A stretch of DNA of 64,000 nucleotides, from positions 1 through 64,000 of the forward strand of contig JAKPHF010000050.1 of the NCBI GenBank assembly GCA_029550525.1. The letters are read 5' to 3'. The notes under the pieces are model-generated. The model was not told where the DNA came from. It saw nothing but the letters and a program-made list of their open reading frames with translations, and made no database searches. This document shows positions 20,548-29,545 of the stretch, one piece after another; the first letter of the stretch is position 1; every line of letters starts with the position of its first letter. Source of the stretch: Planctomycetota bacterium (GTDB lineage Bacteria > Planctomycetota > Phycisphaerae > UBA1845 > PWPN01). The position numbers were made by a program, and so were the translations under genes.

Positions 20548-23500
20548 CTACAGGCCTGCTCGGGAGGTTGAGCCGAACGAGCTGGCGAGGCTGGACAGGG
20601 CGCTCAGCGAAGACTGCTGGGCCTGCAGGTCGGACAGAGCCTTCTCCATGGCCTGGAACTGCTTGTAGTAGCGTTCCTCCTTGTTGTTGAGCAGGATCTT
20701 GAGGTCCTCTATGCGGCGGTTGTAGAGCTCGATCTTGTCGTCGAGCCGGTCGGTCTGCGAACTGATCAGGCCGCCGGCGCTGCTGGTCAGGAGGCGCAGT
20801 TCCTCCTTGAGAGCAGCGGCGATTCCGATGTACTGCACCTTCTCCTTGCCGTCCGCATCCGTGGTCGAGCTCGTCTTCGTGAACAGATTCTGGACCGCTT
20901 GCGGGTCTTTCTCGAGGGCGTCTCGGAAGGCCTGCTCGTCGAGTTCCAGCCGCCCGCCCGAGCCGAACTTCAAACCCACGCTGCTCAACCGCCGCAGCGA
21001 GTATTCCGCGGAGAGCGAGCGCGACAACTGGCGATACAGCCGATCCTGGATCTGACGGACAGTGTGATCGCCCAGGAGAACACCGCGCTCGTTGGTCTTG
21101 GGATCGAACTTTGTCAGCTCGCCGAGACGGTCGAGAACGGCGTTGTAGGCGGTGACGAAGCTCTTGAGGTCGTTGACGGTGGAGTCCGTATTGGTGGCCA
21201 CGTTGACCTGCACGGCCGTGGCGGTGGAGGCCAGGAGGTCCAGCGTCAGCCCCTGCACCACGCCGGTGATCTTGTTGGTGCTGCTCGAGACGACGATGGA
21301 GTTGGGCGAATCGATGTTGCCCACCACCACGCGGGCGTCGGTGGCTTCGGTGAGCGTTTCGAAGGCCAGGCCGCTCGTGCCGGTGTTGAAGGCTATCTGG
21401 CCCGCGGTGCCGCTGGCGGTGGAGGTCACGACCAGTCGGTAGGGCCGGCTGCCGCTGCCGTCGTTGAGGATGCTCGCCCGGACGTTGAGCCCGGCGCTGT
21501 TGATCTTGTTGACCACGTCGTCGAGGGTGTCGGCCGGACCAATCTCGATGATACCGGCGAGCGATCCCGTGAGCACGCCCGGATTGGCCGGCGAGGCCTG
21601 CCCCTTGATCCCCAGGGCGGCGGCCGCGCTGCCGCCGCTCAGTTCGGCCACCGTCAGCCGCCCGGTTCCCCCCTCGGTCTGATCGACGAGCATGATGCCG
21701 TCGCCGTTGGCGTTCACCTGCGCGGTAACGCCGATGTCGGCCGCGGCCTGATTGATGGTGTTGATTACATCTCCGATGGTCTGGTGAAGGCTGCCGCTCA
21801 GCGTGATGGTGACGCTCTGACCAGCGGTGTTGGTAATCTGGAACTTGACGGTCGAGTTGCCTTGACCGGCGGTCAGGCCGATGCCTTTGCCACCGTTGAG
21901 CGACGACAACAACGTCGTCTCGGAGATGTACTTGCGGTTGAGATCGCCCCCGACCAGCCGTCCCGTCGCCGAGCTCCCGGCCACGTGCAGGTCTTCCAGT
22001 GTCTCACCACTGGCGGTGAACAGAGCCGTACCCTCGGTCAAATCCTGGATGGTCAGTCCCGTGCCCCCCGCGGACACCTCGGCCCGCAACGAGCCCTGCT
22101 GGTTGATGAGGTTGATGATGTCCTGCAGCGTCTGAGCATTGGACAGATCGACGGTTTGCGTCGTTCCATCGCGAAGCTGGAACTGAACCACGCCCAGTCG
22201 AACGCCCGCGCCGCCGTTGAGATTTCGCAGCAGTACCGTGTTCAGGCCCGATGCGAGCCGCCCGCCGGTGAGCGTGCCGTTTTGGAACGTGCCGGTGAGC
22301 CCCAGGTCCTGCAGGGCCATGGAACCGTTGAGCGCCTCGATGGTCGCGGTCCCGCCGGTTGTGTGATCGATGAGAGTCAGTCCCTTGCCGTCGGCGCTCA
22401 CGGCGATTTCGAACGCCCCGTCGTTCAGGTTTCCGTCGGCGTCGCGCGCGTACTGGATTCTGCGAATCAGCGAGTTGATCGTGGTGAACTGGTAATTGGC
22501 CTTGCCCGTCACCGCACTGTCGCTCGTCTTGCCGGCGATCTTCAACTGAGAGGCAATCGAACCGGTGACATCCTCGATCTCGAGCATGCCGGTTCCTTCG
22601 CTGTTGTCGCTCAGGATGATCGTGCCCGAACTGCTGGCTGACGTAAATGTGACATTCAGGTCCTTGTATTCGTCCGAAGCCAGCAAGGCTTTCACGTCGT
22701 TGAGCGACTCGGTTCCGGTGAGGTGCAGTTCTTTGGTCACGCCCGCCTTGTTGGTGATGCGAATCGTGCCCGGCCCCACGCCCTGGCCGCCGTTCAACTC
22801 GGCCAGGCTGGTGTTGAAACTGAACGCGTTGCTCAAATCGATTTCGAATGAACGGCCGTTGGCCAGCGTGATCCTGAAATCCGATTGCGTCGTGTTGAAC
22901 CGGACGCCCAGCCCGTCGTTCAGCGAAGCGAGCGTCGTGGCGCCGGTGAGCCGCACGAGATCGACCGACGATGCGATACGTCCGCTTCCGTCCTCACTGC
23001 CCAGGATGCCCAGGTCGGTCGCGGTCAGCCCCGTGCCGACGTTGGTCACCGTCAATTGGCCCGTACCGGCGGGCAACCCGGTGACGTCCTCGAGGACAAT
23101 GCGGTCGCCCTGGATATACGCCCTGACCGCCACCTGAGACTGCGAATTGATGGCTTCCAGCACGTCGCGAACGGTGTACGCGGATCGCAGATCGATGGTG
23201 GCCGAAGCGTTGGCCCGGTCGGTGATACGAATCTGTCCCCGGCGGACGCCCGCCCCACCGTTCAGGACCGACAGCTCCGTGTCGGGATCCACACGGGCCT
23301 GGGCCGTCTCGAATGTCAGCGTGCCCGCCCCCACCGGCGTGACGTTGCGATCGGCAAACCCGAGGGAGGCGACCTGGTGAGTGGAGACGATCGACCGCAC
23401 GAGGAAGGAATAGCTGCCCACGGAAGCGGTCGGTTCGGCGGTCACCGTCAGGGCCTCCGGCTGCGAGCTGGTAGCGGTGCGGGCGGTGAACGTCCGGCTC

Positions 23501-23700
23501 TCGGCCAGCCGGCTGATCGCCGAGAGAGCCCCCATCAACTGGGCGTTGATGGTCTGGTATGCGAGCTTCTGGGCGTTAACGCTTTCGACGCGCGTCTGCA
23601 ACTGCAACAGCGGACGCGACTCGATCTCCATCAACTGCTTGACCAGCCCGGCGATATCGAAGCCGGAAATCAGGCCGGTGCTGGAGGATATGCCACCCAT
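20548..23700 (-). CDS. fliD: flagellar filament cap protein FliD, expanded
   Basis: Cap/hook-associated protein 2 that assists flagellin assembly at the filament tip. The N-terminal MGGISSSTGLISGFDIAGLV and the C-terminal coiled region (about 970-1030) are typical. At 1050 residues it is about twice the common length. The extra mass is a series of Flagellin_IN-like repeats opening LNGG-G (near residues 146, 260, 302, 494 and 601), each followed by a strand-rich block and a V-x-D-V/I-x-x-x-I-N helix. The start was set at MGGISS by family resemblance. It would be surface-exposed at the tip; the repeats may be adhesive, but that is inference. Confidence 0.95.
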   Translation of the reverse strand: MGGISSSTGLISGFDIAGLVKQLMEIESRPLLQLQTRVESVNAQKLAYQTINAQLMGALSAISRLAESRTFTARTATSSQPEALTVTAEPTASVGSYSFLVRSIVSTHQVASLGFADRNVTPVGAGTLTFETAQARVDPDTELSVLNGGAGVRRGQIRITDRANASATIDLRSAYTVRDVLEAINSQSQVAVRAYIQGDRIVLEDVTGLPAGTGQLTVTNVGTGLTATDLGILGSEDGSGRIASSVDLVRLTGATTLASLNDGLGVRFNTTQSDFRITLANGRSFEIDLSNAFSFNTSLAELNGGQGVGPGTIRITNKAGVTKELHLTGTESLNDVKALLASDEYKDLNVTFTSASSSGTIILSDNSEGTGMLEIEDVTGSIASQLKIAGKTSDSAVTGKANYQFTTINSLIRRIQYARDADGNLNDGAFEIAVSADGKGLTLIDHTTGGTATIEALNGSMALQDLGLTGTFQNGTLTGGRLASGLNTVLLRNLNGGAGVRLGVVQFQLRDGTTQTVDLSNAQTLQDIINLINQQGSLRAEVSAGGTGLTIQDLTEGTALFTASGETLEDLHVAGSSATGRLVGGDLNRKYISETTLLSSLNGGKGIGLTAGQGNSTVKFQITNTAGQSVTITLSGSLHQTIGDVINTINQAAADIGVTAQVNANGDGIMLVDQTEGGTGRLTVAELSGGSAAAALGIKGQASPANPGVLTGSLAGIIEIGPADTLDDVVNKINSAGLNVRASILNDGSGSRPYRLVVTSTASGTAGQIAFNTGTSGLAFETLTEATDARVVVGNIDSPNSIVVSSSTNKITGVVQGLTLDLLASTATAVQVNVATNTDSTVNDLKSFVTAYNAVLDRLGELTKFDPKTNERGVLLGDHTVRQIQDRLYRQLSRSLSAEYSLRRLSSVGLKFGSGGRLELDEQAFRDALEKDPQAVQNLFTKTSSTTDADGKEKVQYIGIAAALKEELRLLTSSAGGLISSQTDRLDDKIELYNRRIEDLKILLNNKEERYYKQFQAMEKALSDLQAQQSSLSALSSLASSFGSTSRAGL

Positions 23701-23966
23701 CGCCGTCTCCCGGGAACGCAATGAAACGTCGCCGCCTCGGCGCGGAGAACCGCTCTCGGCAGTGCGCGCGCACTTCCTGTCTGATTCATCGGCTTGAGGA
23801 CCGATATACCTGCACTTGGAAGTGACGAGGAAGCCCCGCAGAGACGCCGCGGACAGGAAAAGCTTGGGGACAGACAGTTACCGGACGCGGATCTGAGCCG
23901 GGCACACAACGGCACCCGGGCCAAGATCCGCTGGCCGGCCGGCATAGCTTGTAGAGCCGTACGGGC

Positions 23967-24122
23967 TCAGGTGCCCAGGAGCACGCTGCTGATCAGGCTC
24001 GTGACCACGGTCGTGGCCAGAGACGAAACAAGGGGAGCGAGAATGGCGTCGCACCCGGTCGCGGTCTGGAAGACGGTGCCGCCGCACAGGGCCGCAAATG
24101 CGATCCATCGCACTTTGGTCAT
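23967..24122 (-). CDS. small exported Cys peptide 1 (51 aa)
   Basis: Not a family I can name. The 51-residue product has a short basic start (MTKVRW), a hydrophobic stretch to about residue 20, and VFQTATGC with Cys at 24. A second hydrophobic, Ser/Thr/Val-rich segment follows to the end. AAGGAG lies 6 nt before ATG, which supports translation. The Gln before the Cys recurs in six neighbours. The motif is not a canonical lipobox, so it may be an uncleaved or Sec-cleaved membrane peptide. It is the last of three such genes on this strand before fliD. Confidence 0.7.
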   Translation of the reverse strand: MTKVRWIAFAALCGGTVFQTATGCDAILAPLVSSLATTVVTSLISSVLLGT

Positions 24123-24245
24123 GAGCAACTCCTTCGGGAAGTTCGGACGAACGGGCAGATGGACGTCCACCCGCCCGCGCATCGCCTGATTCTGATTCTG
24201 CCGAGCCCAACGAGGATCGGCGAGCGGCCCACCATCGAGGGCGAG

Positions 24246-24512
24246 CTAATTCGTGGTGGCGTCTCCGCCACCGCCGCCCGGCCAAACCGTCCCGCACTGA
24301 CCGGGGATGGTACAGGTCGGATCGAGGTTCCAGTTCGGGAAGTCGGTCGTGAGCAAATCGTACTCGGCCGGGTCGCAGTTGAAGATCGTGCCGCAAGGAT
24401 TGATCGTGTGCGTGACCTTCTCAGCCACACCCGTGCAGGTGAAATTGAACTGCATTCCGGCAACAAGCACGAAAAGGACCTGCACAATGCGTTGAAGATG
24501 CTTTCGGGTCAA
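24246..24512 (-). CDS. small exported Cys-rich peptide 2 (88 aa)
   Basis: Unrecognised family. Translation is assigned to TTG at 24512 because GAGGTG lies 5 nt upstream and it yields a complete export signal: basic MTRKHLQR, hydrophobic IVQVLFVLVAG, then MQFNFTC with Cys at 26. Four further cysteines (40, 46, 67, 73) could make two disulfides outside the cytoplasm. The C-terminus is a run of five glycines and DATTN. Its layout parallels the 95-residue neighbour upstream (FNC/FDC and a Gly-rich tail), suggesting duplication. Both probably share the promoter at 24964-24992. Confidence 0.68.
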   Translation of the reverse strand: MTRKHLQRIVQVLFVLVAGMQFNFTCTGVAEKVTHTINPCGTIFNCDPAEYDLLTTDFPNWNLDPTCTIPGQCGTVWPGGGGGDATTN

Positions 24513-24587
24513 GGTGACACCTCATTGGGTCATCGTTCGGCCCCACGCTGCGGTCGGGCCGTCCGCAAGGTCAGAATCGGCACCCGA

Positions 24588-24875
24588 TTACTGCTGCTGG
24601 TCGGTGCCGCCCCCGCCGGTGGCACTGCAATCGACGAACAAGTCGTCGGCGGTGCTGTTCGGATCGCCACACGGCTGGACGATGCCGCCGAAGAATCCGC
24701 TCTGGCAATCGAAAATGTAACAGAAGTCGATCGAGGTCAGCACGCCGTTTTCCACCAACCGGGGAAAGGTACCGTACGCATTGTTCTGCGTGGTGCAGGT
24801 GACCTGTTGAAACAGCGTACCGGCCATCAGCGCCGCCGTCAGCCACCGCAAACCCCGCGCGAGTTGCTGTGCCAT
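24588..24875 (-). CDS. small exported Cys-rich peptide 3 (95 aa)
   Basis: Unrecognised family. The 95 residues begin with MAQQLARGLRW, a hydrophobic segment, and GTLFQQVTC with Cys at 27. Four more cysteines (52, 57, 69, 83) and a terminal GGGGTDQQQ follow. GAGGAG lies 9 nt before the ATG, and a convincing promoter lies about 90 bp upstream. The Cys layout and Gly tail resemble the next gene downstream, so the two look like diverged copies. The exported part is acidic and polar and could fold with disulfides. No catalytic motif is visible. Confidence 0.75.
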   Translation of the reverse strand: MAQQLARGLRWLTAALMAGTLFQQVTCTTQNNAYGTFPRLVENGVLTSIDFCYIFDCQSGFFGGIVQPCGDPNSTADDLFVDCSATGGGGTDQQQ

Positions 24876-24963
24876 GAAACGGAACTCCTCGTGAGCAAGT
24901 CGAGTGCTTCTGTGGAAGGCAACCACGTCGGGCGGAAACGGGCAATCGTTCCAGCCGGACGGC

Positions 24964-24992
24964 AGTATACGTCTGCCCAAGTGTATTCGCAA
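24964..24992 (-). promoter_or_regulatory. promoter for the three-gene small-peptide unit
   Basis: TTGCGA and TATACT separated by 17 nt on the minus strand, with expected transcription start about 80 nt before the 95-residue peptide gene. No comparable promoter was found before the next two small genes. Confidence 0.6.
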
Positions 24993-25071
24993 CTGGTCGC
25001 GGAGGGTTTCGGGCAGCCAGCCGGATAACCGGCGGGTCGGCCCGGTGGGCAGCCCGTCCGGCGATCCCCGG

Positions 25072-26229
25072 TCAGTCGCCCGGGCTGCCCTGGATGATCC
25101 ACGCCTCGTTGCAGGCGATATGGTCGATCCGCTTGCGCCCCACCGAGAAGAGAATGTGGACGAGGCCGTCGGATGTCTGGATCACGCTGGGATAGCTGCA
25201 GTTCTCCGTCCCGTCCACGAGCAAGCGACGACAAGGCCAGGTTGCTCCGCCGTCCGCGGACAAGGCCGCGGTGAGTCGCACACGTTCAGCCGGACTGTCA
25301 TTATAGACCAGCAGCAGGTTGCCGCCGGCCAACTGAACGATCGCGGCGGGACTGGCCGGGTTGGGGAACCCGCTGTCCTGCGGCTCGGACCAGGTCCTGC
25401 CGCCGTCGCTTGAGCCCATGACCCACAGCCAGCCCTTTTCCGTATTCCGCATGACAGCGACGAACCGGCCCTCGGGAAGAACGGCCACCGAGGGCTGGAT
25501 GGCCGGCGGCGTCGTGGCGATAGCTCCCAGGAGCGTCCATTGGCGGCCATCCGCCGACGCGTACATGAGCGATCGCTGCAGGAGGTCATCGTAAGCGGGC
25601 AGCAGGAGATCACCTGTTGCCGTGCGCACCGGAGGAAATCGAACGTTCGCCCCCACTGGCCCCGGCAATGCGACCGGCTCGGACCAACTCTTGCCCCGGT
25701 CGGCAGAATCCTGCATGGCGATGTGGGCTGTGGACCACAGTCCGGGCACGACGGCCTGGAACAGCAACACCCGCTCACCTTCGCTGTAGAGCACGGGGTT
25801 GCCGTCGCCGACCGGCCGATCGATGTGGAGCCAGGGCGTCTGCCAATCTTCCTGTCCAGGCGATCGCCGGGACATATATATGGCCGAGCCGTCCAGTTCG
25901 TGCGGTCCCGAATAGGCGTACCAGGCGGCCAGCAGCTCGCCGTCGGGAAAGACTGTGATGGTCGCGGCATGGACGCCGGCGTGCTCGGGCGCGGCGTGCA
26001 CGACGGGCCGGCGGTTGAAAACGGGTTGGCCGCCGGAAACCGGAAGCACCGGCTCAAGGGTGGAATCATTGAACACGATTGGGGGCCCGTCCCCAATAAG
26101 CGACGTCCCGAGCCACTGGATACATCCGGGGCAAGCGGCCGCACCGAACATCAACACTGCGAGCCCCCGCCCAACGGCCTTCGGGCACCAGCTTCGGCCG
26201 CCGTGAAATCTACGATCGGAGTAGCTCAT
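25072..26229 (-). CDS. BNR/Asp-box repeat sialidase-like exported protein
   Basis: Predicted six-bladed beta-propeller hydrolase or binding protein, 385 residues. Asp-boxes are visible as SADRGKSWSEP, SSDGGRTWSEP and SADGGATWP, with further blades before and after. The N-terminus has a basic stretch, a hydrophobic segment (GLAVLMFGAAA) and CPGC, consistent with a secreted or lipid-anchored protein. The architecture is like exo-alpha-sialidase-domain proteins common in planctomycetes; the catalytic Tyr and Arg triad was not assigned, so specificity is unknown. AAGGA lies about 8 nt before the ATG. It sits between two groups of small exported-peptide genes, downstream of a strong terminator. 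Confidence 0.85.
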   Translation of the reverse strand: MSYSDRRFHGGRSWCPKAVGRGLAVLMFGAAACPGCIQWLGTSLIGDGPPIVFNDSTLEPVLPVSGGQPVFNRRPVVHAAPEHAGVHAATITVFPDGELLAAWYAYSGPHELDGSAIYMSRRSPGQEDWQTPWLHIDRPVGDGNPVLYSEGERVLLFQAVVPGLWSTAHIAMQDSADRGKSWSEPVALPGPVGANVRFPPVRTATGDLLLPAYDDLLQRSLMYASADGRQWTLLGAIATTPPAIQPSVAVLPEGRFVAVMRNTEKGWLWVMGSSDGGRTWSEPQDSGFPNPASPAAIVQLAGGNLLLVYNDSPAERVRLTAALSADGGATWPCRRLLVDGTENCSYPSVIQTSDGLVHILFSVGRKRIDHIACNEAWIIQGSPGD

Positions 26230-26280
26230 GTCGCATCCTTGTCGAGCGAACGTCGGGATCAGCCCCGATGCGGTCATTAT

Positions 26281-26327
26281 CGCGGGTAAAAACAAAAATG
26301 GACAACTCCCGTTGCCGGGAATTGTCC
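26281..26327 (-). terminator. intrinsic terminator ending the four-gene peptide cluster
   Basis: Minus-strand stem of 12 bp with one mismatch (26300-26327, loop TTGC on the plus strand), followed at once by ATTTTTGTTTTT. This is the clearest rho-independent terminator in the window. It separates the upstream small-peptide genes from the sialidase-like gene. Confidence 0.85.
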
Positions 26328-26437
26328 TCTCTATACCGCTTCCGCGAATCGTCGCGTCGCCTGATGGCGGCACCATCGATTCGGCTGCCCCATCGGGCAC
26401 AGCGACGATCCGCGGAGTTCAGGTCAGAGTCGTTCGA

Positions 26438-26614
26438 TCAGAAGAAGCCGCCGATGATCGGCAGATTCTGGAGGAACTCGACCGGGCTGGGGACGGTCGG
26501 GATAATGGTCAGGCCATTGCCACCGAAGCCACCCTGGGTCGAGGTGCAGGGAGCCTGCATGAGGTAGACGGACGACATGCTGGCGACCGTCAGGACTTTC
26601 ATAAAGCGCTTCAT
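26438..26614 (-). CDS. small exported Cys peptide 4 (58 aa)
   Basis: Unrecognised family. The 58-residue product starts MKRFMKVLTV, has a hydrophobic stretch ending VYLMQAPC (Cys 23), and then a Gly/Asn/Pro-rich tail GGFGGNGLTIIPTVP with a hydrophobic end IIGGFF. GGAG lies 8 nt before the ATG. The Gln three residues before the Cys matches the pattern of its neighbours. It is the last gene before a strong terminator, so it ends the upstream four-gene unit. Confidence 0.68.
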   Translation of the reverse strand: MKRFMKVLTVASMSSVYLMQAPCTSTQGGFGGNGLTIIPTVPSPVEFLQNLPIIGGFF

Positions 26615-26751
26615 CTTCAGATCTCCATTTCTTGTTAGTAGTTGGCGGCCCTCAGCGCGAGCCCCGCACTGCCGATTCCGGCGGCCTGGGCTCTACACGT
26701 AGATCGGCCGCAGCCAACGAAGCAAGGCCAAGAACGACCTCGCATCGCGTC

Positions 26752-26913
26752 TCAGCTGAAGATATCCTCGCGGAGGATAGCCGTGATGATGCGCGACCAG
26801 CTGCCGGCGTCAGTGTTGTAGAAGAAGTTGCCGCCGAAGCAGCCACCGAGCTGGAACAGGGTGGCGCCCGTCGCCGCTGCCAAATAGGACCACATTCGTA
26901 AACGCTTGAGCAT
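26752..26913 (-). CDS. small lipoprotein-like peptide 5 (53 aa)
   Basis: Unrecognised family. The 53 residues start MLKRLRMWSY; a hydrophobic segment leads to ATLFQLGGC, a good lipobox with Cys at 25. The predicted mature part is only 29 residues (CFGGNFFYN onward) and aromatic and polar. AAGGAGG lies 6 nt before ATG, a very strong ribosome site for so small a gene. It closely matches the 46-residue peptide two genes upstream around QLGGC. Confidence 0.75.
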   Translation of the reverse strand: MLKRLRMWSYLAAATGATLFQLGGCFGGNFFYNTDAGSWSRIITAILREDIFS

Positions 26914-27030
26914 TGCAAGCCTCCTTGTTTGTCGAATCATCCGGCATCGACGAGACCCAAGGCCTCAGACATTGACGCCGGTGTTACTGGCGGCTCTCCC
27001 GGGATCCCCCGGGCCGCCACACGTTACTCG

Positions 27031-27156
27031 TCAGTTGACGACCGAGAGAATCGCGTTCTGCAGGATGAAGTCGGCCAGGCAGGCGCCGAGGTTCAGGGCC
27101 GCCAGCGTCGAGCCTGCAAGAACCAAGCCCCACTTAACCCAAGTCTTCTTCGACAT
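27031..27156 (-). CDS. small lipoprotein-like peptide 6 (41 aa)
   Basis: Unrecognised family and the shortest gene here. MSKKTWVKWG is followed by a hydrophobic stretch and AALNLGAC, a lipobox with Cys at 26. The mature part would be 16 residues, LADFILQNAILSVVN after the Cys, with the look of an amphipathic helix. AGGAG lies 6 nt before ATG. Length, start and the residue before the lipobox (Asn for Gln) align it with the peptide gene just upstream. Confidence 0.72.
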   Translation of the reverse strand: MSKKTWVKWGLVLAGSTLAALNLGACLADFILQNAILSVVN

Positions 27157-27266
27157 TTCTTTCTCCTAGTTCTGAATGTAGGCCAAGGATTTAGGCCTCT
27201 GGGTCTTCACGATACCAAACCAGAACGACTGGCCGGTCCGCGTGACCGCTCAGCTCGTGGCCTGTC

Positions 27267-27407
27267 TCAATCAAACAGGTTGCCGATCACGACGTACTGG
27301 ACCACCCGCTGGTACCAGTCATTACCCAGGCAACCACCCAACTGCAGTGCCGACAGCGTGGCAACGGCTGTCAACAATGCACCCTTGAGCCTGCTCCACT
27401 TGGACAT
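27267..27407 (-). CDS. small lipoprotein-like peptide 7 (46 aa)
   Basis: Unrecognised family. MSKWSRLKGA begins a signal-peptide-like region ending SALQLGGC, a canonical lipobox with Cys at 26. The 21-residue mature tail (LGNDWYQRVVQYVVIGNLFD after the Cys) could form an amphipathic helix. AAAGGAGG lies 6 nt before ATG. It is the first gene of a four-gene series (gaps 110, 117 and 137 bp) ending at the terminator near 26300. A small hairpin (GGCCTCC/GGAGGCC) lies 30 bp upstream in the leader. Confidence 0.75.
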   Translation of the reverse strand: MSKWSRLKGALLTAVATLSALQLGGCLGNDWYQRVVQYVVIGNLFD

Positions 27408-27636
27408 TGCGTGCCTCCTTTAGAAGGGAACAAGTCGGCCTCCCAACTGGAGGCCATCGAGGTGCCATTCTTCCGGCTTCCGTCGCCGGATGCACCCCCA
27501 CAACCAAACTTAACTCCGATTGCATTCGCCGAGCCGCGCCGACTCGGACTCACGTTCTTGTTTCAGGCTGGCGGTGATGGGTTCCGCCATGCCCCTTCGA
27601 GCTCAGCCGCGCCGCTGGCTCTATTGGGGCGGAATC

Positions 27637-28719
27637 TTAACCTTTTTCCTTTGCTTTGCAAGTGCCATCTTGGAAAAATTGTTCGATGACCTCTTGCGTA
27701 ACCGGTCGAATAATTCCTTTTTCGGTGATAATCCCTTCGATCAGATTCGCCGGTGTCACATCAAACGCCGGATTATAGCATGCCACACCTTCAGGCACCG
27801 TAACCCTTCCAAAACCCTTACTGATCTCGTCGGCCGGCCGTTCTTCGATGGGAATCGCCGTGCCATCGGCTGTCGCAAGGTCGAAGGTGGACAGCGGTGC
27901 CGCGACGTAGAACGGCACGTTATGGGCCCGGGCCAGCACGGCAACGCTGTAAGTGCCGATTTTATTGGCCGTATCGCCATTTCGGGCGATCCGATCGGCC
28001 CCGGTCACAACCAGGCTCACCTTCCCCTGCCGCATGAGCAGTCCGGCCATGTTATCGCAGATGACCGTCACGTCGATGCCGGCCTGTGCCAATTCCCAGG
28101 CAGTCAACCGGGCTCCCTGGAGCAACGGCCGAGTCTCATCCGCGTAGACGAGAAACCGTCTGCCGGCTTCTCGGGCGGCGTACATGATGGCCAGGGCCGT
28201 GCCATACTCGGCCGTCGCCAGCCCGCCTGCGTTGCAGTGGGTCAATACACCGGCACCCTCTTGGATCAGATGCTGGCCCGCCTGGCCGATGGCCCAGCAG
28301 GTGGCGGCATCCTCGTCACGGATGGCCTGGGCCTCGGCCAGCAAGCGTGCTTTGATCGCATCCACGGGCATCGTCCGAACGGACTCAGCCACCCGCTTCA
28401 TGCGGTCCAGGGCCCAAAACAGGTTGACTGCCGTGGGCCGGCATCGGCTCAGGTAGTCGCATGCTTCTCCCAGCTTTTCAAAGAGCGTGGCGGTGGTCGG
28501 AGCCTTTCGGATTCCCAAAACCACGCCGTATGCGGTCGCGACGCCGATCGCCGGCGCCCCACGGACCCGCAGGTTGCGAATGGCCTCCCACAGGGGTTCG
28601 ATTTCCTCGCAGGTGACCACCCGGCATTCGCCCGGCAGGAGGGTCTGATCAATCAGACGAAGCTGTCCGTCGAGGCCGCCGACCCACTCTATCGTCTTGT
28701 AGCGAATCGGCTTAACCAC
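27637..28719 (-). CDS. mtnA: S-methyl-5-thioribose-1-phosphate isomerase
   Basis: Methionine-salvage enzyme converting 5-methylthioribose-1-phosphate to methylthioribulose-1-phosphate. The 360-residue protein shows [30 protein letters not shown] (active-site Cys) and [16 protein letters not shown], all MtnA features. The GTG start at 28719 overlaps the end of purE by 8 nt and has AGGAG about 10 nt upstream, implying coupling. Related eIF2B-like proteins lack the HCNAG context, so the assignment is firm. No other salvage gene lies beside it. Confidence 0.93.
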
Positions 28720-29215
28720 CGCGCAGCCGCTCCTGCAAAGCTTGGCAGTTTTTATCGACCGATTCGGCCTGTTTACTTTTGAAATTCTTGAGCCGGTCGC
28801 GCAATTTCGGCACACTCGGGGCCAGGATCTGCGCCGCCAGGATGGCCGCATTCCGGGCGCCGGCCGAGCCGATCGCCACCGTGGCGACGGGCACGCCGGG
28901 GGGCATCTGGACCATGCTCAGCAGGCTGTCGATGCCCTGGAGCGGGGCTGAGGCGACCGGAATGCCGATGACCGGCCGAATGGTATACGCCGCCACCGCA
29001 CCGGGGAGAGCCGCGGCCATGCCGGCCGCCGCGATGAACACGCCGACGCGGTCCTCGGCAGACAGCACGTATTCCCGCAACTTGTCCGGCGTCCGGTGAG
29101 CGGAGAGCACCTGCACCTCGACGTCGATCTCGAACTCCTGCAACTGGTGGTAGCAGGGCTCGATCGTAGGCCAGTCGGAGTGACTGCCGAGGATAATGGC
29201 AGCGGTCGTACCCAT
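28712..29215 (-). CDS. purE: N5-carboxyaminoimidazole ribonucleotide mutase (PurE class I)
   Basis: Purine-biosynthesis enzyme that rearranges N5-CAIR to CAIR. It has 167 residues. The signature [21 protein letters not shown] at the start, LSAHRTP with the catalytic His, and [18 protein letters not shown] are intact. The start MGTTAAI is preceded by a modest GGGAAG. No purK accompanies it here; the downstream partner is mtnA with 8-nt overlap. purC lies about 14 kb away. Confidence 0.95.
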
Positions 29216-29264
29216 CAGTTCGCTTCCCTTGTGCGGCCCCCGATCATGAGTTGCCGTATCCCGC

Positions 29265-29292
29265 ATTCTAGTGACGTTTGCACTCCTGGCAA
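29265..29292 (-). promoter_or_regulatory. promoter for purE-mtnA
   Basis: TTGCCA and TAGAAT with a 16-nt spacer on the minus strand, about 50 bp before purE. It lies in the 330-bp divergent gap (29216-29545) between purE and the GH9 gene. I saw no convincing promoter for the plus-strand gene there. Confidence 0.55.
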
Positions 29293-29545
29293 TTCCGCCG
29301 GTCGGCTCACGCCCGGAATTTGGGCCATTCCTGCAGTGCCGATTTAGAACATTTGCTGATATTTCACAGAAATCCAAGCCTGCGGGCCTCTTAGGATGGT
29401 TTACCGCCCCCGCCGTGCCCTTTGCCCGTAACCGTGGACCAGGCAGGTCTGGGTGGCGAATCCCGAGCGGACGGTGCTGTGAGGCCTTAGCGCGGCCAGG
29501 TTTTTCGCGTACGCTCCACGCAACTCATCTGACAGGAGATCACCC

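Follow-up and report, generated by a model that had tools for sequence, protein, structure and literature searches.

The locus described here raises the question of whether seven very small ORFs, lying close together on one strand of a planctomycete genome, are genuine genes and, if so, what their products might do. The window (the whole 64-kb stretch of DNA that was analysed) was originally predicted to carry a cluster of ORFs of 41–95 codons on one strand, each with its own Shine-Dalgarno (SD) sequence, encoding secreted peptides or micro-lipoproteins with a constant leader and a variable tail. Inspection of the ORFs and a rule-based scan located all seven as claimed, and they are designated A to G.

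Gene A (27267–27407; minus strand, as for all window features given here) encodes 46 aa, with LQLGGC followed by a tail ending in ..YVVIGNLFD, and has the SD sequence AAGGAGG. Gene B (27031–27156; 41 aa) has LNLGAC and a tail of 15 aa, and its orthologs occupy the same slot. Gene C (26752–26913; 53 aa) has FQLGGC and a tail ending in ..AILREDIFS, and gene D (26438–26614; 58 aa) has LMQAPC. Genes E (24588–24875; 95 aa, with the module QQVTC) and F (24246–24512; 88 aa, TTG start) are both predicted to encode small, Cys-rich exported proteins, and gene G (23967–24122; 51 aa) has FQTATGC and a hydrophobic tail of 27 aa. All seven ORFs are preceded by an SD sequence, and all seven products conform to a leader consisting of a basic N-terminus, a hydrophobic run and a Cys within about 20–30 residues, followed by a tail of 15 to 68 residues. 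The Cys is residue 26, 26, 25, 23, 27, 26 and 24 in A to G, respectively, in agreement with the predicted placing at residues 23–27, and is preceded at a short distance by Gln or, in B and F, by Asn. In E, however, the Cys of QQVTC occupies an alignment column other than that of the conserved Cys of its orthologs. From family to family, the ribosome site upstream of A hardly varies (AAGGAGGCTCxC, found at many loci, e.g. window 27408–27420), suggesting that this gene may be strongly translated.

The scan accepted ORFs of 30–140 aa with an SD sequence, a basic N-terminus, a hydrophobic run and a Cys at residue 18–36. Applied to the whole window, it returned exactly A–G and one spurious ORF with a TTG start, and applied to 610 kb of the window genome it returned 19 hits, most of them non-ATG or spurious-looking. 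At this background rate about 0.1 hits would be expected per 3.4 kb, whereas seven were observed, so the cluster is not a product of chance. Searches of Pfam and NCBIfam gave no convincing match for any of the seven, bearing out the prediction that they belong to no named family. This lack of annotation would also fit chance ORFs or the decayed remnants of larger genes, but that reading is countered by the conservation of the genes across the order, by their synteny, by the purifying selection on them and by the conserved ribosome sites, and its probability is negligible. The original prediction could have fallen on unconserved leaders or on decay from larger genes; both were examined, and neither holds. 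Judged by these comparisons, A–G are real genes rather than noise, and their arrangement has been preserved across a single, little-studied planctomycete order.

The F profile found exactly one copy in each of 92 of the 397 genomes of the class Phycisphaerae. These comprised 89 of 98 genomes of the window's order as against 3 of 299 other genomes of the class, the three all belonging to one other family (f14). A search with the single E sequence matched 29 of 61 genomes (window genome counted), and the window genome was the sole match of the E profile in a phylum sample of 343 genomes. The profiles of A and C matched 25 and 26 of 114 order genomes, respectively, with 23 genomes common to both. 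In families f1, f2 and f8, G has orthologs located downstream of F. Across the genomes compared, the array genes are shown by their sequences to be vertically inherited and mostly single-copy, with conserved order and position-specific tails. The host order probably corresponds to UBA1845 of GTDB, which has so far been met only in larger metagenomic datasets (PMC11266412); if it does, it is probably known only from metagenomes.

The predicted combination of constant leader and variable tail turned out to be reversed. The tails are unrelated between the seven positions, as had been stated, but each is strongly conserved from genome to genome. Orthologs of A typically end in ..QRILVAVNFD, those of B carry ..GDxxGDAxWLRGVD, and those of C end in ..NRWLNxGIDILNEELFG. 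Orthologs of D, which occur in L029, L030 and family f4, have ALGLNCxPNIG (f4) or LMQAPC (f1, f6), while the motifs FCxIFDCQNGxFGGxxDPC..LFxDC and NPCGTIxNCDP..DPTCTIPGxC characterize E and F, respectively. In pairs of related genomes, pN/pS of tail, leader and whole gene was 0.10, 0.64 and 0.40 for A, 0.21, 0.48 and 0.27 for E, 0.25, 0.49 and 0.30 for F, and 0.23, 0.31 and 0.26 for G, ratios that are indicative, the genome pairs being non-independent and the counts uncorrected for saturation. The tails of these four genes are thus more constrained than their leaders. Constraint appeared weak in C (0.58) and D (0.69), with one pair each, and the ratio for B was 0.03 (two pairs). On these alignments, A–G are seven families of orthologs, each with a conserved tail specific to it. 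A diversifying cassette with variable tails was rejected on the ortholog alignments and on pN/pS.

The profile of E recognised the gene in 72 of 79 loci, and at every one of these E lay immediately 5' of F. An mtnA-like gene (27637–28851; IF-2B family, Pfam IF-2B, E 5.8e-90) is the conserved upstream neighbour; it was seen in 52 of the 79 loci, and in all 52 it lay no more than 3 kb upstream, on the same strand. In the window its true start is probably downstream of the ORF start, because the ORF overlaps purE (28712–29377; AIR carboxylase, Pfam AIRC, E 2.2e-56), which is found upstream of mtnA in many relatives. Genes A–D directly follow mtnA and form a second unit beside E-F. The ordered array mtnA-A-B-C-D-E-F occurs in families f1 (window, L026, L030), f4 (L093, L097, L099, L103, L107, L112, L118, L119 and others) and f6 (L029), with parts lost in some f1 members, while mtnA-E-F is what families f7 and f8 mostly have, and in f8 F is often followed by G. 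The recurrence of such clusters in related genomes, which the original prediction had named as support, was therefore found. In two genomes (G015, G034) the E-F pair lies elsewhere, yet A-D still follow mtnA, which argues for two modules that are usually joined. From this synteny, the locus has been conserved in the form of two units, mtnA-A-B-C-D and E-F(-G).

An intrinsic terminator (26300–26327), consisting of a 12-bp stem followed by ATTTTTGTTT, closes the A-D unit. It was the one strong terminator found, and promoter-like hits were few, leaving little for the claim that each gene has an individual promoter and terminator. No match to an RNA element or riboswitch was obtained in the region with Rfam up to E 0.5. 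Between D and E, after the strong terminator, the array is interrupted by a BNR_2 sialidase-like gene (25072–26229; Pfam BNR_2, E 2.8e-50) with a lipoprotein-like leader, on which the original prediction was silent. It was rejected as part of the array, since nothing matching it turned up at the loci of relatives that were compared. An unusually long fliD (20548–23721; about 1050 aa) lies immediately downstream of the array; a link to this flagellar gene was also rejected, as it was absent from the stretches fetched around the relatives' arrays.

Leaders of this type are not confined to the array. A profile built from 20 leaders, including those of the window (so that matches to the leaders used are by construction), matched 29 of 61 genomes of the order (E up to 0.001) as against 0 of 293 other genomes of the phylum. 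Independent matches included dispersed micro-genes in the window genome (contigs C58, C28 and C80) and a second cluster of 3–4 micro-genes with the same leader type in two genomes of one genus (L176:2599–3640, L177:2414–3485). The lineage thus seems, as far as leader sequences tell, to equip a class of micro-proteins with this leader. The check proposed with the original prediction accordingly gave an order-specific profile that reaches beyond the array. Single dispersed micro-genes with the same kind of leader are located in the window genome at L179:2784–2981, L180:2898–3053, L181:2939–3094 and L158:12768–12977, and one dispersed family (..TGLLAxLxGxTFFLARNV) recurs in another genus (L190:2969–3118). 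The L176/L177 cluster has a recurring tail motif (EFFLDNDAVFDLF-like) and adjoins rho-like and peptidase-like genes.

In orthologs of A–D and G the Cys is invariant, lies at residue 21–32 at the end of the hydrophobic run, and is accompanied by a second Cys in only 1 of 78 tails. A lone Cys at the end of a leader is most simply a lipid anchor, and LspA is encoded in the window genome (PF01252, C19:603004–603618, E 5.1e-25). The strict lipobox, defined as [LVI][ASTVI][GAS]C (PMC7296081), was found in 4 of 78 orthologs (1/14 A, 0/17 B, 1/15 C, 0/15 D and 2/17 G); a looser form, L-G-[GA]-C, is present in A, B and C of the window. Clear longer lipoproteins of the same genome have -TGC, -AGC or -PGC, without Gln. 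Several observations would fit a different reading, in which the leader either stays in place as an N-terminal membrane anchor or is removed by signal peptidase I, the Cys is a thiol, metal or disulfide partner, and the products are small membrane or periplasmic proteins and not lipoproteins. These observations are the non-canonical residues ahead of the Cys, the Asn often found at -1 in D orthologs, the charged residue that immediately precedes the Cys in 16 of 60 orthologs of E and 11 of 70 of F, and the long spacer between hydrophobic run and Cys in several E proteins of family f1. The otherwise invariant placing of a nearly always sole Cys in A–D and G, together with LspA, speaks against this alternative, which is considered unlikely but still to be reckoned with. 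Of the predicted micro-lipoproteins, then, the exported look and the common leader type stand, and lipidation has to be put conditionally, the strict lipobox being rare. Lipidation of A, B, C and G is considered somewhat probable, and that of D, E and F would be less so.

The Cys-rich proteins E and F mostly have an odd number of Cys residues (3, 5 or 7, in 68/72 E and 68/79 F), which fits one anchor Cys plus disulfide pairs. The F proteins of L040, L101 and L102 lack the Cys pair of NPCGTIxNC as a unit, while the first Cys and a later Cys pair are kept; as the two residues are lost together, this suggests that they may form a disulfide. The profiles of E and F align through the leader and the first CxnC (hhalign 86.7%), and the two probably are distantly related paralogs, each with a compact body held by Cys pairs. 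AlphaFold models of both were poor (mean pLDDT 51–53), so the folds lend no support to any function, and sequence searches of the PDB gave nothing useful. In several families (F orthologs of L032, L033, L034, L043, L075 and L084) F has a Pro-rich PGPRP end, and several E and F proteins of family f1 end in low-complexity Thr/Asn/Asp repeats; such ends could possibly serve as wall or surface linkers.

The reading preferred here, with a probability of about 0.5, is that A–G are order-specific, very small envelope proteins, in which the Cys would be lipid-anchored (probably in A–D and G) or disulfide-bonded (E and F). The leader would direct Sec export, and the lone Cys that follows would carry the lipid and serve as the anchor in A, B, C and G, probably also in D and less surely in F. 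Lipidated products would be hydrophobic lipopeptides of about 15–35 residues at a membrane face. As the strong ribosome sites suggest, the products would be made in quantity, and they may act jointly in the cell envelope as small components of its structure or its assembly, being neither diversifying toxins nor signals. Such a housekeeping role is favoured over toxins or signals because the genes are single-copy, ordered and constrained. More tentatively, all the micro-lipoproteins and small disulfide proteins might form one multi-part envelope assembly, a near-core invention of this Phycisphaerae lineage that would be a surface or membrane system without counterpart in known bacteria, the order-specific leader marking a whole class of exported micro-proteins.

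Membrane-active lipopeptides used for antagonism or lysis, such as colicin lysis proteins or the entericidins, which are proposed to be pore-forming (PMC7296081), resemble A–G in size (mature peptides of 16–35 aa), in their hydrophobic tails and in their tandem layout. Yet no Pfam match to entericidin or any other family was obtained, and the tails are neutral to acidic and mostly barely more amphipathic than shuffled sequences, C being the most amphipathic relative to its shuffles. The genes are also single-copy and conserved order-wide, and in Agrobacterium an entericidin homologue showed no lytic activity when tested (PMC7296081), which is counted against a lytic role; such a role is regarded as improbable. 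Cationic antimicrobial peptides are likewise disfavoured by the neutral or acidic tails and weak amphipathicity. Secreted signalling peptides of a quorum-sensing-like kind might be seen in the short conserved C-terminal motifs (..VAVNFD, ..GVD, ..EELFG), which are possibly releasable, but the sequences are conserved across genera instead of diversified, and several different peptides occur together as a set. Both lysis and signalling also have to contend with the neighbourhood, since among the loci compared no conserved immunity, export or transport, kinase, receptor, protease or maturation gene was found beside the array; signalling, too, is given little credence.

Gene callers and family databases routinely overlook conserved proteins as small as the envelope proteins proposed here, and a literature search found no paper describing such genes or their arrangement. 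Seven new families, some of them near-core, at one recognisable place downstream of mtnA can be directly annotated and tested. Should the leader be a genuine lipoprotein signal, one whose lipobox is relaxed and contains Gln, the rules by which lipoproteins are predicted in these planctomycetes need to be revised, and if the array encodes one complex, it is one of which we know no description.

Colicin lysis lipoproteins and Lpp-type small lipoproteins are very small lipid-anchored envelope peptides. No sequence relation between these and A–G was found, nor were colicin or phage genes seen near the array, and A–G are single-copy genes common to most of the order. RiPP and toxin cassettes have a conserved leader, a variable tail and adjacent processing, export or immunity genes, whereas in A, E, F and G the tail is more constrained than the leader, and mtnA and purE alone were recognised as conserved neighbours of the array. 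Ordinary lipoproteins of the window genome, which has LspA, share with A–G the basic N-terminus, hydrophobic run and Cys, but the long ones have no Gln at -3 to -5, while the micro-genes have a Gln-rich relaxed motif and encode almost no mature body. Nearest to A–G in size and layout are the entericidins EcnA and EcnB of Proteobacteria (PMC7296081), which are likewise tandem tiny genes with a Sec-type leader, a Cys at about residue 21–27 and a mature peptide of about 20–35 aa. As judged by sequence, an assignment of A–G to the entericidins fails: the array has more genes, matches no Pfam or NCBIfam family, has conserved tails with different motifs and a mostly non-canonical lipobox, and occurs in a single Phycisphaerae order, apart from E-F, which a second family of the class also has. 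It is plausible that A–G work like a small lipoprotein, and they are new families of a known general kind, that of very small exported or lipid-anchored proteins.
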